Assembly: GCA_022820945.1 (NCBI GenBank) | Contig: JAJEEP010000049.1 | Span: 62,001-126,000, forward strand | Reading direction: 5' to 3' | Length of the DNA stretch: 64,000 bases | From: Alphaproteobacteria bacterium | GTDB lineage: Bacteria; Pseudomonadota; Alphaproteobacteria; UBA828 | In this document: piece by piece, positions 607 to 58,868 of the stretch | Layout: each line of letters starts with the position of its first letter | How positions within the stretch are numbered: position 1 is the stretch's first letter | Translations under genes and position numbers: made by a program | Notes under the pieces: model-generated | What the model saw: only the letters and a program-made list of their open reading frames with translations | What the model was told of the DNA's origin: nothing | The model's database searches: none

Positions 607-652
607 CTTGTCGATTGGAGCGGCGCGGCTCGACTGACGAAATGAGCCCGGA

Positions 653-812
653 CCATGGTGCGGTGCACGGCAGGCGCCGGGCGCGTCAGGCTCGCCTCAT
701 GCGGCGCGAGAAAGAGTGGTCACGACCGGCGGGACTAAACGTAGCTCTCACTGGGATCGCGTCCCGCCCCTTGACCGCCTGTTCCGCATAATCCCGGCGA
801 ATCCCGCATGAA
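653..812 (-). repeat. Dispersed repeat, short copy A
   Basis: Read on the minus strand this copy begins with a 24-bp segment (789-812) that matches 35463-35486 with 2 mismatches, and ends with a 36-bp segment (653-688) that matches 35617-35652 with 3 mismatches and contains GTGCACCGCACCATGG. The middle is not conserved between copies. The same end words flank the gp27-like gene at 58190-58737. No transposase is present, so it looks like a non-autonomous or decayed copy. Confidence 0.6.
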
Positions 813-27945: not shown

Positions 27946-29055
27946 ATGCCGGCCATGAGACTGCCGCGCTTACCGAGCCCGATCCTCGGCTTCCTCGCGG
28001 GCCTGTTGCTGGCCGCGGGCCCGACGCTCGGCGCGGAGCAGGACGCGGCACCGGCTTCCACATCGCCCTCGACATGGGCGCTCGAAATCTGGACGCCGCC
28101 TTTCGATTTCCGCAGCCCGACGACGACCGTCACCTATGAGCCCCTCCCGCAGGCTACACGGAAGTGGCGCATCTGCGCCTCATACCCCCATCTCAAGGAT
28201 TCCTACTGGCTGAGCGTCAACTACGGCATGGTCCAGGAGGCGAAGCGGCTCGGCGTCGCGCTCCGCGTGGTCGAGGCGGGAGGCTATCCCAACCTCGCAC
28301 GCCAGATTGCCCAGATCACCGAATGCGCCCGGGACGCGGACATCCTGGCGCTGGGCGCGGTGAGCTTCGACGGCCTGACGGAAGCAGTGCTCGCGATCAG
28401 CGAGGAGATTCCGGTGCTCGCCGTGGTCAACGACATCGCCGACCCCGGTATAAGCGCCAAGGCCGCCGTCTCCTGGGTCACGATGGGGGAGGTTACCGGC
28501 GCCTACCTCGCCAGTCTCCACCCGGCGGGCACGCCCCCAGTCAAGGTGGCGTGGTTCCCCGGCCCGCGGGAATCGCAGTGGGCCTACTTCGTCGAGGAGG
28601 GCTTCACCGAAGCGCTCGCGGGCAGCGCCGTCGATATCGTCGTGAAGAAGTGGGGCGACACCGGACGCGAAATCCAGCTGATCCTGGTCGAGGAGGCGTT
28701 GGAGGAGCGCCCTGACGTCGACTACATCGTGGGCAGTGCGGTCACCGCCGGCGCTGCTGTGAGCCTGCTCCGGGCGCGCGGCCTCACCGGGCAGATCCGG
28801 GTCCTGGCGGACTACTTCACCCACGCGGTCTATCGCGGCATCAAGCGCGACAAGATTCTTGCCGCACCCACCGACTTCCCCGCCCTGCAGGGCCGCATGG
28901 GCATCGAGATGGCCGTGCGGCTGCTGGAGGGCAAGCTGGAGCACCCGCACGCCGGGCCGCTGATCCACATCGTAGAGCAGGCCAATCTCGACTCCTTCAA
29001 CACGCGCCTTTCGCTCGCGCCCGCCGACTTCTCCCCAACTTTCGTGGTCGAATAG
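27946..29055 (+). CDS. torT: Periplasmic TMAO-binding sensor component TorT
   Basis: 369 residues. A signal peptide (MRLPRLPSPILGFLAGLLLAAGPTLGAEQ) precedes a two-lobed periplasmic binding fold of the ribose-binding type (WRICASYPHLKDSYWLSVNYGMVQEAKRLG, ADILALGAVSFDGL, WFPGPRESQWAYFVEEGF, YIVGSAVTAGAAVSLLRARG). TorT binds TMAO and presents it to the TorS sensor domain. The gene is divergent from torS, 46 bp between starts. Starts at 27946 or 27955 are both possible. No torCAD, torYZ or dor genes are in the window. Confidence 0.85.
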   Translation: MPAMRLPRLPSPILGFLAGLLLAAGPTLGAEQDAAPASTSPSTWALEIWTPPFDFRSPTTTVTYEPLPQATRKWRICASYPHLKDSYWLSVNYGMVQEAKRLGVALRVVEAGGYPNLARQIAQITECARDADILALGAVSFDGLTEAVLAISEEIPVLAVVNDIADPGISAKAAVSWVTMGEVTGAYLASLHPAGTPPVKVAWFPGPRESQWAYFVEEGFTEALAGSAVDIVVKKWGDTGREIQLILVEEALEERPDVDYIVGSAVTAGAAVSLLRARGLTGQIRVLADYFTHAVYRGIKRDKILAAPTDFPALQGRMGIEMAVRLLEGKLEHPHAGPLIHIVEQANLDSFNTRLSLAPADFSPTFVVE

Positions 29056-35387: not shown

Positions 35388-35719
35388 GGCGCGCGGCGCC
35401 CTCCTGCGCGGGGCCGGGCTTCTGACCTGCGGCGGGCCCTGTGGGATAGTGCGAACTTAAATTTCATGCGGGACGCGCCGGGATTAGGCGGGATGAGTAT
35501 GATGGGGTGGGATTCCACGGCGCCCAGCCCCGCGCGCGAGATGGCGTCGAGCGAGCCCGCTAATCATGCCGCCGCCGGCGGTGGTCCTACAGCGCGCGCA
35601 AGTCATGGCGCAATCGTGACGCGGCCGGCGCCCACCGTGCACCGCACCATGGCGCCGGTCGCTCGCGCCCACAGTGTCTCGCGCGCTGAACCGTGTTGCA
35701 TTCGAACGAAGCCGCGCGA
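35388..35719. other. Intergenic region holding repeat copy B
   Basis: 332 bp between the acyl-CoA operon start and the end of the hydroxyacid dehydrogenase gene. More than half is the dispersed repeat at 35463-35652. No gene was recognised. Confidence 0.7.
35463..35652 (+). repeat. Dispersed repeat, short copy B
   Basis: In inverted orientation to copy A at 653-812. The left end (35463-35486) and right end (35617-35652) match copy A with 2 and 3 mismatches; similarity continues about 12 bp outside the left end (GCGAACTTAAAT versus GCGAAATTAAG). The right end word GTGCACCGCACCATGG and the following CCGGT..CTCGCG are shared with the copy at 58.7 kb. Confidence 0.65.
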
Positions 35720-57983: not shown

Positions 57984-58189
57984 CTTAGGCCCTCGCTCAG
58001 TCCTGGGGGTGCTCGGGGCGGGATCGTCGACTCCGCTCCCTGAGCCACCGCCTCACCCTATCGCAGACCCACGATTCCGACAACACACGCGTTCCCCATC
58101 CGTTTGCGCAACCGGCCTCCCCAGAAGGCGGGCTGTCGGCCTGGGATTTTTGGCAAGAAACAAACATTTTGAGGCGGCACGAGCCGGGA

Positions 58190-58669
58190 TCATGCGGGAT
58201 TCCCGTCTACGTCCAAAGGATTCCGTCCCATGCGTCGGTCGGCGCTGACGGGGCGGGGCATCCCCTCGCGCTCCGCAAGCAGCTCGCCCGCGCCTTCGAT
58301 GCGCAACAGCGCAAGGGCGAGGCGGGCGATCTCAATCGGCGCCACCGGTTCTCCATCCCTGTCGAGCGTGGCCACCGTCATCGCCGCCGCCGCGCCCACG
58401 GCCTCGAGCGCGACCGGCCGGGTGCCTTCCCTGGCGCTCTCGACGATGGCAGCCGCCCAGGTCTTGGCGGCGCGGTCGATCTCGCGTTGCCGGTGGATCT
58501 GCGCGCGCCTGCGCTTGACGTAGCGGCCCACGGACGAGCGCGAGCACGCGGCGCCGTGTGCGCGAATCACCACCGCGATGGCGTCGATGGTGGCGCCGTC
58601 CTCGATCGCCACGTCCACGGCGGCGCGGATCTCGGGCAGCAACAGCTCAATTGTGGAACGCCGGCTCAT
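58190..58669 (-). CDS. Orphan Mu gp27-like (DUF3486) protein
   Basis: 159 residues. The N-terminal part, SRRSTIELLLPEIRAAV...ATIDAIAVVIRAHGAACSRSSVGRYVKRRR, is that of the DUF3486 family, phage Mu gp27, thought to act with the terminase in head packaging. The rest is Ala-rich helix. No other phage genes lie nearby; neighbours are ispH and cutA. GAGAGGAT precedes the ATG at 58667-58669. An in-frame ATG further upstream falls inside the conserved repeat word CCATGG and would add MVRCTASGVRFSIAPHNARGCD. It is probably a relic of a transposable phage or cargo of the flanking repeat. Confidence 0.7.
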   Translation of the reverse strand: MSRRSTIELLLPEIRAAVDVAIEDGATIDAIAVVIRAHGAACSRSSVGRYVKRRRAQIHRQREIDRAAKTWAAAIVESAREGTRPVALEAVGAAAAMTVATLDRDGEPVAPIEIARLALALLRIEGAGELLAEREGMPRPVSADRRMGRNPLDVDGNPA

Positions 58670-58737
58670 ATCGCATCCTCTCGCGTTGTGTGGCGCGATG
58701 CTGAAGCGGACGCCGGAAGCTGTGCACCGCACCATGG
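58190..58737 (+). repeat. Dispersed repeat, long copy C enclosing the gp27-like gene
   Basis: The left word TCATGCGGGATTC (58190-58202) and the right word GTGCACCGCACCATGG (58722-58737) are the end words of copies A and B, in the same relative orientation as copy B. Between them lies the gp27-like gene; its stop codon is inside the left word. The stretch beyond the right end (TCCGGTGACTCGCG) is also similar to copy B. Confidence 0.5.
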
Positions 58738-58868
58738 TCCGGTGACTCGCGAGCGACGAGGCTACGCTACGCTCCCCTCCCCTTATGGTGCCGCTGGACC
58801 ATTCGTCCGCCGCACGCGACGTGCTGTATCGTCGGGCAAGCGCACGGAAACCACGAGAGGGCCGAGAG

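Follow-up and report, generated by a model that had tools for sequence, protein, structure and literature searches.

A dispersed repeat family in an alphaproteobacterial genus as a probable transcription-and-packaging unit of domesticated Mu/B3-like phage genes

The repeat family described here was followed from a window of 64,000 nucleotides (C172:62001-126000) of the source draft genome G000 (4.66 Mb, 178 contigs), in which it is present in three copies. Judged from sequence comparison, the repeat is probably (with a probability of roughly 0.6) the transcription-and-packaging unit of a domesticated and dispersed Mu/B3-like gene set that resembles a gene transfer agent. Read inward, such a unit would start with a late promoter in which a 16-bp dyad at -43.5 replaces the -35 box and an ATG lies 6 nt past the -10 box, followed by a small terminase (TerS) gene and by an array of about 3-10 ten-bp repeats at or behind the TerS 3' end. 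The dyad would be recognised by a Mor/C-type activator of the same genomes and the array would be bound by the cognate TerS HTH ring. The units would have multiplied round the chromosome, most of them losing the gene and leaving promoter and array behind.

The repeat copies and their promoter end

The first-pass annotation had reported copies at 653-812, 35463-35652 and 58190-58737, bracketed by two end words, and all three were found at these positions. They comprise the following features.

58190..58669, minus strand: TerS gene of the Mu gp27 / DUF3486 type, 159 aa, start codon at 58669 and stop at 58190 (PF11985, phrog_426)
58727..58742, minus strand: 16-bp dyad CCGGACCATGGTGCGG of the putative Mor-type promoter before TerS, with the geometry of Mu Pm
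58698..58703, minus strand: -10-like box CAGCAT before TerS
58173..58204, no strand: eroded 10-bp repeat array GGCGGCACGA GCCGGGATCA TGCGGGATTC at the 3' end of TerS
648..663, plus strand: Mor-type dyad of the first gene-less copy
687..701, plus strand: first gene-less copy, -10-like box CAGGCT (687-692) with the conserved ATG at 699-701
780..809, no strand: short 10-bp repeat array TGTTCCGCAT AATCCCGGCG AATCCCGCAT of the first gene-less copy
35642..35657, minus strand: Mor-type dyad of the second gene-less copy, right half changed
35604..35618, minus strand: second gene-less copy, -10-like box CACGAT (35613-35618) with the conserved ATG at 35604-35606
35467..35515, no strand: second gene-less copy, phased array of class A with a run of 3 phased repeats

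The run of three phased repeats in the second gene-less copy is expected 0.05 times per window under a first-order Markov model. In the TerS-bearing copy the conserved ATG position is lost.

The word GTGCACCGCACCATGG at one end has 3 exact occurrences in the window; if up to 3 mismatches are allowed there are 7, against 1.31 expected from shuffles. The search for further copies was extended to the whole draft, where 30 exact and 12 one-mismatch copies of GTGCACCGCACCATGG were counted and none of the reversed control pattern. With a profile of this end (R1), 287 copies were retrieved over the eight genus genomes, 51 of them from G000 and 12-57 from each of the seven others, which confirms a dispersed family. 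Outside the genus, a single one-mismatch match was present in 3 of 13 other genomes of the family. Many copies contain neither a gene nor a clear array.

The conserved block at this right end measures about 62 bp. In 96 copies from five genomes, the inward consensus reads CNCCGGACCATGGTGCGGTGCAC ... CAnnAT, then 6 nt and ATG; the dyad centre falls at -43.5 relative to the A of the conserved ATG, and the second (A) and sixth (T) positions of the -10 box are conserved in 94% and 95% of the copies. In the Mu promoter Pm, the place of a -35 box is taken by a 16-bp inverted-repeat element, centred at -43.5, to which Mor binds (PMC4390567). By its layout, then, the GTGCACCGCACCATGG end is a promoter built like a Mor-activated promoter of Mu, with the dyad at -43.5, a -10 box and no -35 box; transcription is assumed to start at the conserved ATG, since the geometry matches that of Mu Pm. 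The genome also encodes a Mor-type activator (L297:3407-3754; phrog_836 'late transcriptional activator', E 1.5e-13; Pfam Mor, 5e-6), an orthologue of which is present in G005. This Mor-like protein may recognise the dyad, and the promoter would then depend on it. The likeness to Mu Pm and Mor thus covers both the position of the dyad and the presence of a Mor/C-family gene. In contrast to Mu Pm, the present promoter has another dyad sequence, is dispersed in many copies over one chromosome and would start transcription at or near the ATG; binding of the activator is a prediction.

Two other explanations of the repeat ends were tried and rejected. For a right-end hairpin in RNA or single-stranded DNA, of the IS200, REP or attC kind, individual folds varied and the consensus fold of 41 sequences was trivial (-2.9 kcal). 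As for a MITE with terminal CCGG repeats, CNCCGGACC is common to the right junctions, but 'CCGGCCCGAG' on the left codes for the C-terminus of TerS.

In many gene-less copies (among L001-L041 and L239-L294), the reading frame that begins at the conserved ATG stays open across the array, with predicted peptides of 60-150 aa, for example ending LGPPWATLARSRPE. Two promoter-like copies in G005 (L291 on C17 and L292 on C126) stand before a gene starting MATRRQIEANRRNAQKSTGP.

Small terminase genes and phased arrays

The gene of the long copy is, from its profile matches, the small terminase of a Mu/B3-like set. It matches PF11985 at E 9e-12 (46.1 bits against a curated cut-off of 28), so that the DUF3486 call and the phage origin of the cargo in the first-pass annotation were right. 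It also matches phrog_426 'terminase small subunit' at E 4.6e-16, a type I copy doing so at 4e-32. The predicted model is helical with a confident N-terminal HTH, and a PDB fold search with this model gave no significant match. There are 9 PF11985 matches in G000, 4 of them gene halves at contig ends; the family was also found in 6 of the 7 other genus genomes, some matches being true prophage genes, and no match was obtained in G005. The window TerS has an intact orthologue in G002 with a dN/dS of 0.36. Over 12 comparisons of close TerS copies it was 0.32-0.48, wider comparisons lying near 1.

When genome contigs were searched for distant relatives, essentially only MAGs of this group were returned, together with one contig filed under Vicinamibacteria. 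The TerS of this MAG contig (L229, JAJEFC010000354.1) is 92% identical to the query, which may reflect misbinning or transfer. In a search of viral contigs, the matches were Mu-like phages whose TerS gene immediately precedes TerL.

Repeats with a 10-bp period form an array at the 3' end of TerS. TCATGCGGGA, previously regarded as a fixed end word, is part of such an array and defines no fixed terminus. The stop codon had likewise been placed inside this end; position 58190 is the stop codon only and the array starts further left, at about 58173. Array cores fall into GGGAT (class A), GGCCTA/GGCCCA (B), GAGAT/GAGAC (C) and GGCACA (D). In a small sample of related members, class A and C copies have Gly at position x of the putative recognition helix SR-S/A-A/S-V/I-x-RY, and class B and D copies have Val, Asn or Ala there.

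For a comparison across genomes, gene-less copies of G003, G005, G006, G007, G002 and a few others were examined, and an array was called by a lag-10 score at a 99% shuffle threshold. The arrays of the G007 copies belong to C and B, as at the TerS loci of G007, and those of the G006 copies are A, D or mixed, again as at the TerS loci of that genome. In G005, which is without TerS, an array was present in 0 of 13 copies; the two end words are hence not always paired. Three of the G005 copies (L250, L252, L253) share an inner motif, GCGAAATTGGGTTCGTTTTGCAATTT, where other genomes carry arrays. Over three genome groups, the nearest TerS-linked array belonged to the same group for 41 of 44 gene-less copies, compared with a mean of 18 under label permutation and with no permutation of 20,000 as high, a figure that is not a clean probability because duplication within genomes inflates the match. 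Genes and array sites nevertheless differ between genome groups in the same way.

In pac phages such as SPP1, the packaging site is located at the TerS gene and contains direct repeats (PMC4737164), and for this reason a packaging start is the most likely role of the arrays. The HTH domain of SF6 TerS shows little preference for the pac repeats (PMC4737164). The present arrays resemble the SPP1/SF6 pac sites in being direct repeats at a TerS gene; they differ in their 10-bp phasing at the TerS 3' end, in the tens of gene-less copies and in having different cores for each TerS type.

Virion genes behind the same promoter

Other cargo was sought behind the GTGCACCGCACCATGG end and further phage genes were found, so that the end words do in part occur independently of each other, some copies preceding genes other than TerS. 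Inward reading frames of fetched copies revealed a Mu-like portal behind the promoter in G000, G003, G005, G006 and G007. TerL lies behind the box in G005, and a degenerate box precedes it in G000. A protease, recognised by a gpI-like motif and with no Pfam match, and a DUF5675 gene each follow the box in G000 as well as in G005, where a gene for a collagen-like protein also does. Profile searches identified Portal_Mu (E 7e-90), Terminase_6C, DUF5675 and Phage_tail_S, as well as a head-tail adaptor, a major tail protein and a tape measure of 265 aa. The set further includes Gam, an S24 repressor and a Mor-type late activator, all three conserved. The virion loci are scattered (protease-capsid-tail, TerL-portal, DUF5675).

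The portal was found in 7 of 8 genus genomes, the exception being G004 (62% complete) with a distant prophage portal only, and the capsid in 8 of 8; neither was present in the 13 other family genomes searched. G000 and G007 are collinear for about 4 kb over the TerL-portal locus and its flanks; G003 shares one flank and the portal. All phage genes tested gave dN/dS values of 0.13-0.39 with no internal stops, the host dps control giving 0.15. Some genomes have one in-frame stop before the capsid start; capsid decay was considered and set aside, the stop being read as the end of a small upstream gene. By these comparisons, the virion set is under purifying selection and vertically inherited in the genus.

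The early region runs in the order S24 repressor, small reading frame, Gam, unassigned gene and Mor, then host dps. No MuA/B was found in this S24-Gam-Mor region of the draft genomes, in which an unassembled MuA is possible. In the same way, a PF09299 search had no match in the drafts of G005 and G007, and its one match in G000 is an unrelated 442-aa rve/HTH_32 transposase; movement of the units by a resident MuA was rejected on these grounds.

The set shares with transposable siphophages of the B3 kind its TerL (35% identity), its capsid (38%), the Mu-type portal, gpG, Gam and the late activator. Unlike in these phages, no MuA/MuB was found with the set, the genes are split over host loci and TerS is uncoupled from TerL. 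Several of these traits are those of gene transfer agents (RcGTA, BaGTA, VSH-1, Dd1, VTA), which are likewise phage-derived, vertically inherited and distributed over several loci including single-gene loci. As in these agents, no replication or transposition module was found by the virion genes of the draft genomes and the tape measure is short. The known agents are multi-locus as well and are without a sequence-specific TerS domain and without recognised start sites (PMC11841831, PMC7947584). The present set departs from them in its Mu/B3-like transposable-phage ancestor, in the shared Mor-type promoter box and in the many TerS copies that keep the HTH alongside matching dispersed arrays. 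It is regarded as similar to gene transfer agents rather than as a member because its TerS copies keep the HTH and covary with the arrays.

Gain and loss of units and their possible role

A unit occupies the window site, between an ispH-like and a cutA-like gene, in G000, G002, G001 and G006; G004 has a remnant there, and in G003, G005 and G007 the site is empty. For a recent TerS copy split over contigs C103/C67, the locus is empty in G003, G004, G006 and G007. At a third locus, G000/G002 and G001 differ in unit type and G004 and G007 have empty alleles. Since orthologous sites are occupied or empty among relatives, the units have been gained and lost. At least some gene-less copies derive from TerS units by deletion, as the first-pass annotation had proposed for short copies, because L008 keeps TerS without the HTH and L035 its start only.

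Two further repeats were observed near the units. A second intergenic family, GCGTAAGCCAAGCGAACGGAGTTCGCGCCCGGCGCCTGAGGGAAATGA, is more abundant, with dozens of copies per genome, and often lies beside promoter-array units (L049, G000:C96 ~28575-28841; L066, G000:C177 ~88492-88718). A third repeat, ending GTGAGAAATGCGGGTTAA, neighbours TerS units and also follows a prophage gp27 gene (L044, L062, L198 near 8.9-9.1 kb, and L143 on G001:C431).

The dispersed copies at occupied and empty orthologous sites, together with recent near-identical TerS copies at unrelated loci, could speak for a non-autonomous transposon or gene cassette, in which the two regions are recombination ends, a transposase acts in trans and TerS is a passenger. 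This reading is unlikely. The right region has the anatomy of a promoter and stands, at constant syntenic positions, before conserved virion genes, the arrays vary between genomes yet follow TerS, and the G005 copies are devoid of the left region. At empty sites, neither target-site or terminal duplications nor fixed termini could be defined, the intergenic flanks being too diverged. The two ends earlier taken for cassette termini are thus a promoter common to phage virion genes and a phased array that tracks TerS.

TerS-encoding phage satellites (PICIs) possess their own TerS with cognate packaging sites, and a TerS with an adjacent site is typical of satellite logic. The units look similar in this respect, and they might parasitise resident Mu-like phages, which would provide Mor for expression, while TerS and array of the unit would divert the helper's TerL and capsids. 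The genus does contain separate prophages of the Mu-like kind, or remnants of them, with gp27 genes of their own (L196/L197, G004:C628; L199, G002:C24; L198, G003:C37). The G004 prophage has a phased repeat array directly behind its gpG gene. The satellite explanation is nevertheless improbable. Virion genes with the same promoter are conserved in all eight draft genomes of the genus, no MuA having been found with them, so that no external helper is needed, and the prophage TerS proteins are distant from those of the units (23-41% identity). Moreover, the units differ from PICIs in lacking integrase, replication or regulatory genes, in measuring about 1 kb or less and in having a chromosomal virion set.

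It is very improbable that an old Mu-like prophage broke up and left promoter and TerS copies as neutral interspersed repeats, a view to which the many eroded short copies and the abundance of other intergenic repeat families in the same genomes lend some weight, against the purifying selection on virion, regulator and TerS genes, the dyad and -10 positions mostly conserved above 90% over 96 copies, and the match between arrays and TerS genome by genome.

Under the transcription-and-packaging reading, synthesis of the activator would switch on the units and the scattered virion loci together; TerS would then bind the dispersed arrays and direct TerL to begin headful packaging of chromosomal DNA there, and the DNA may then be transferred. 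Several observations speak against this reading: the window TerS has an eroded array and no conserved ATG position, many copies are without gene and clear array, the TerL promoter of G000 is degenerate, known gene transfer agents have no sequence-specific TerS or pac sites, and the SF6 HTH has little preference for the repeats. A more specific proposal, which is tentative, is a gene transfer agent with programmed packaging, in which several TerS variants, each with dispersed cognate pac-like arrays, would act under one promoter from dozens of fixed starts. The units would spread selfishly, because their own neighbourhood gets packaged and transferred. In a limited literature search, no paper was found that brings a gene transfer agent together with Mu-like genes and a late promoter. 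The choice of DNA by gene transfer agents is an open question, and, if the proposal is true, each array predicts a step in the DNA coverage of particles, making the choice of packaged DNA directly testable. A phage regulon would here have been turned into an interspersed genomic repeat family.
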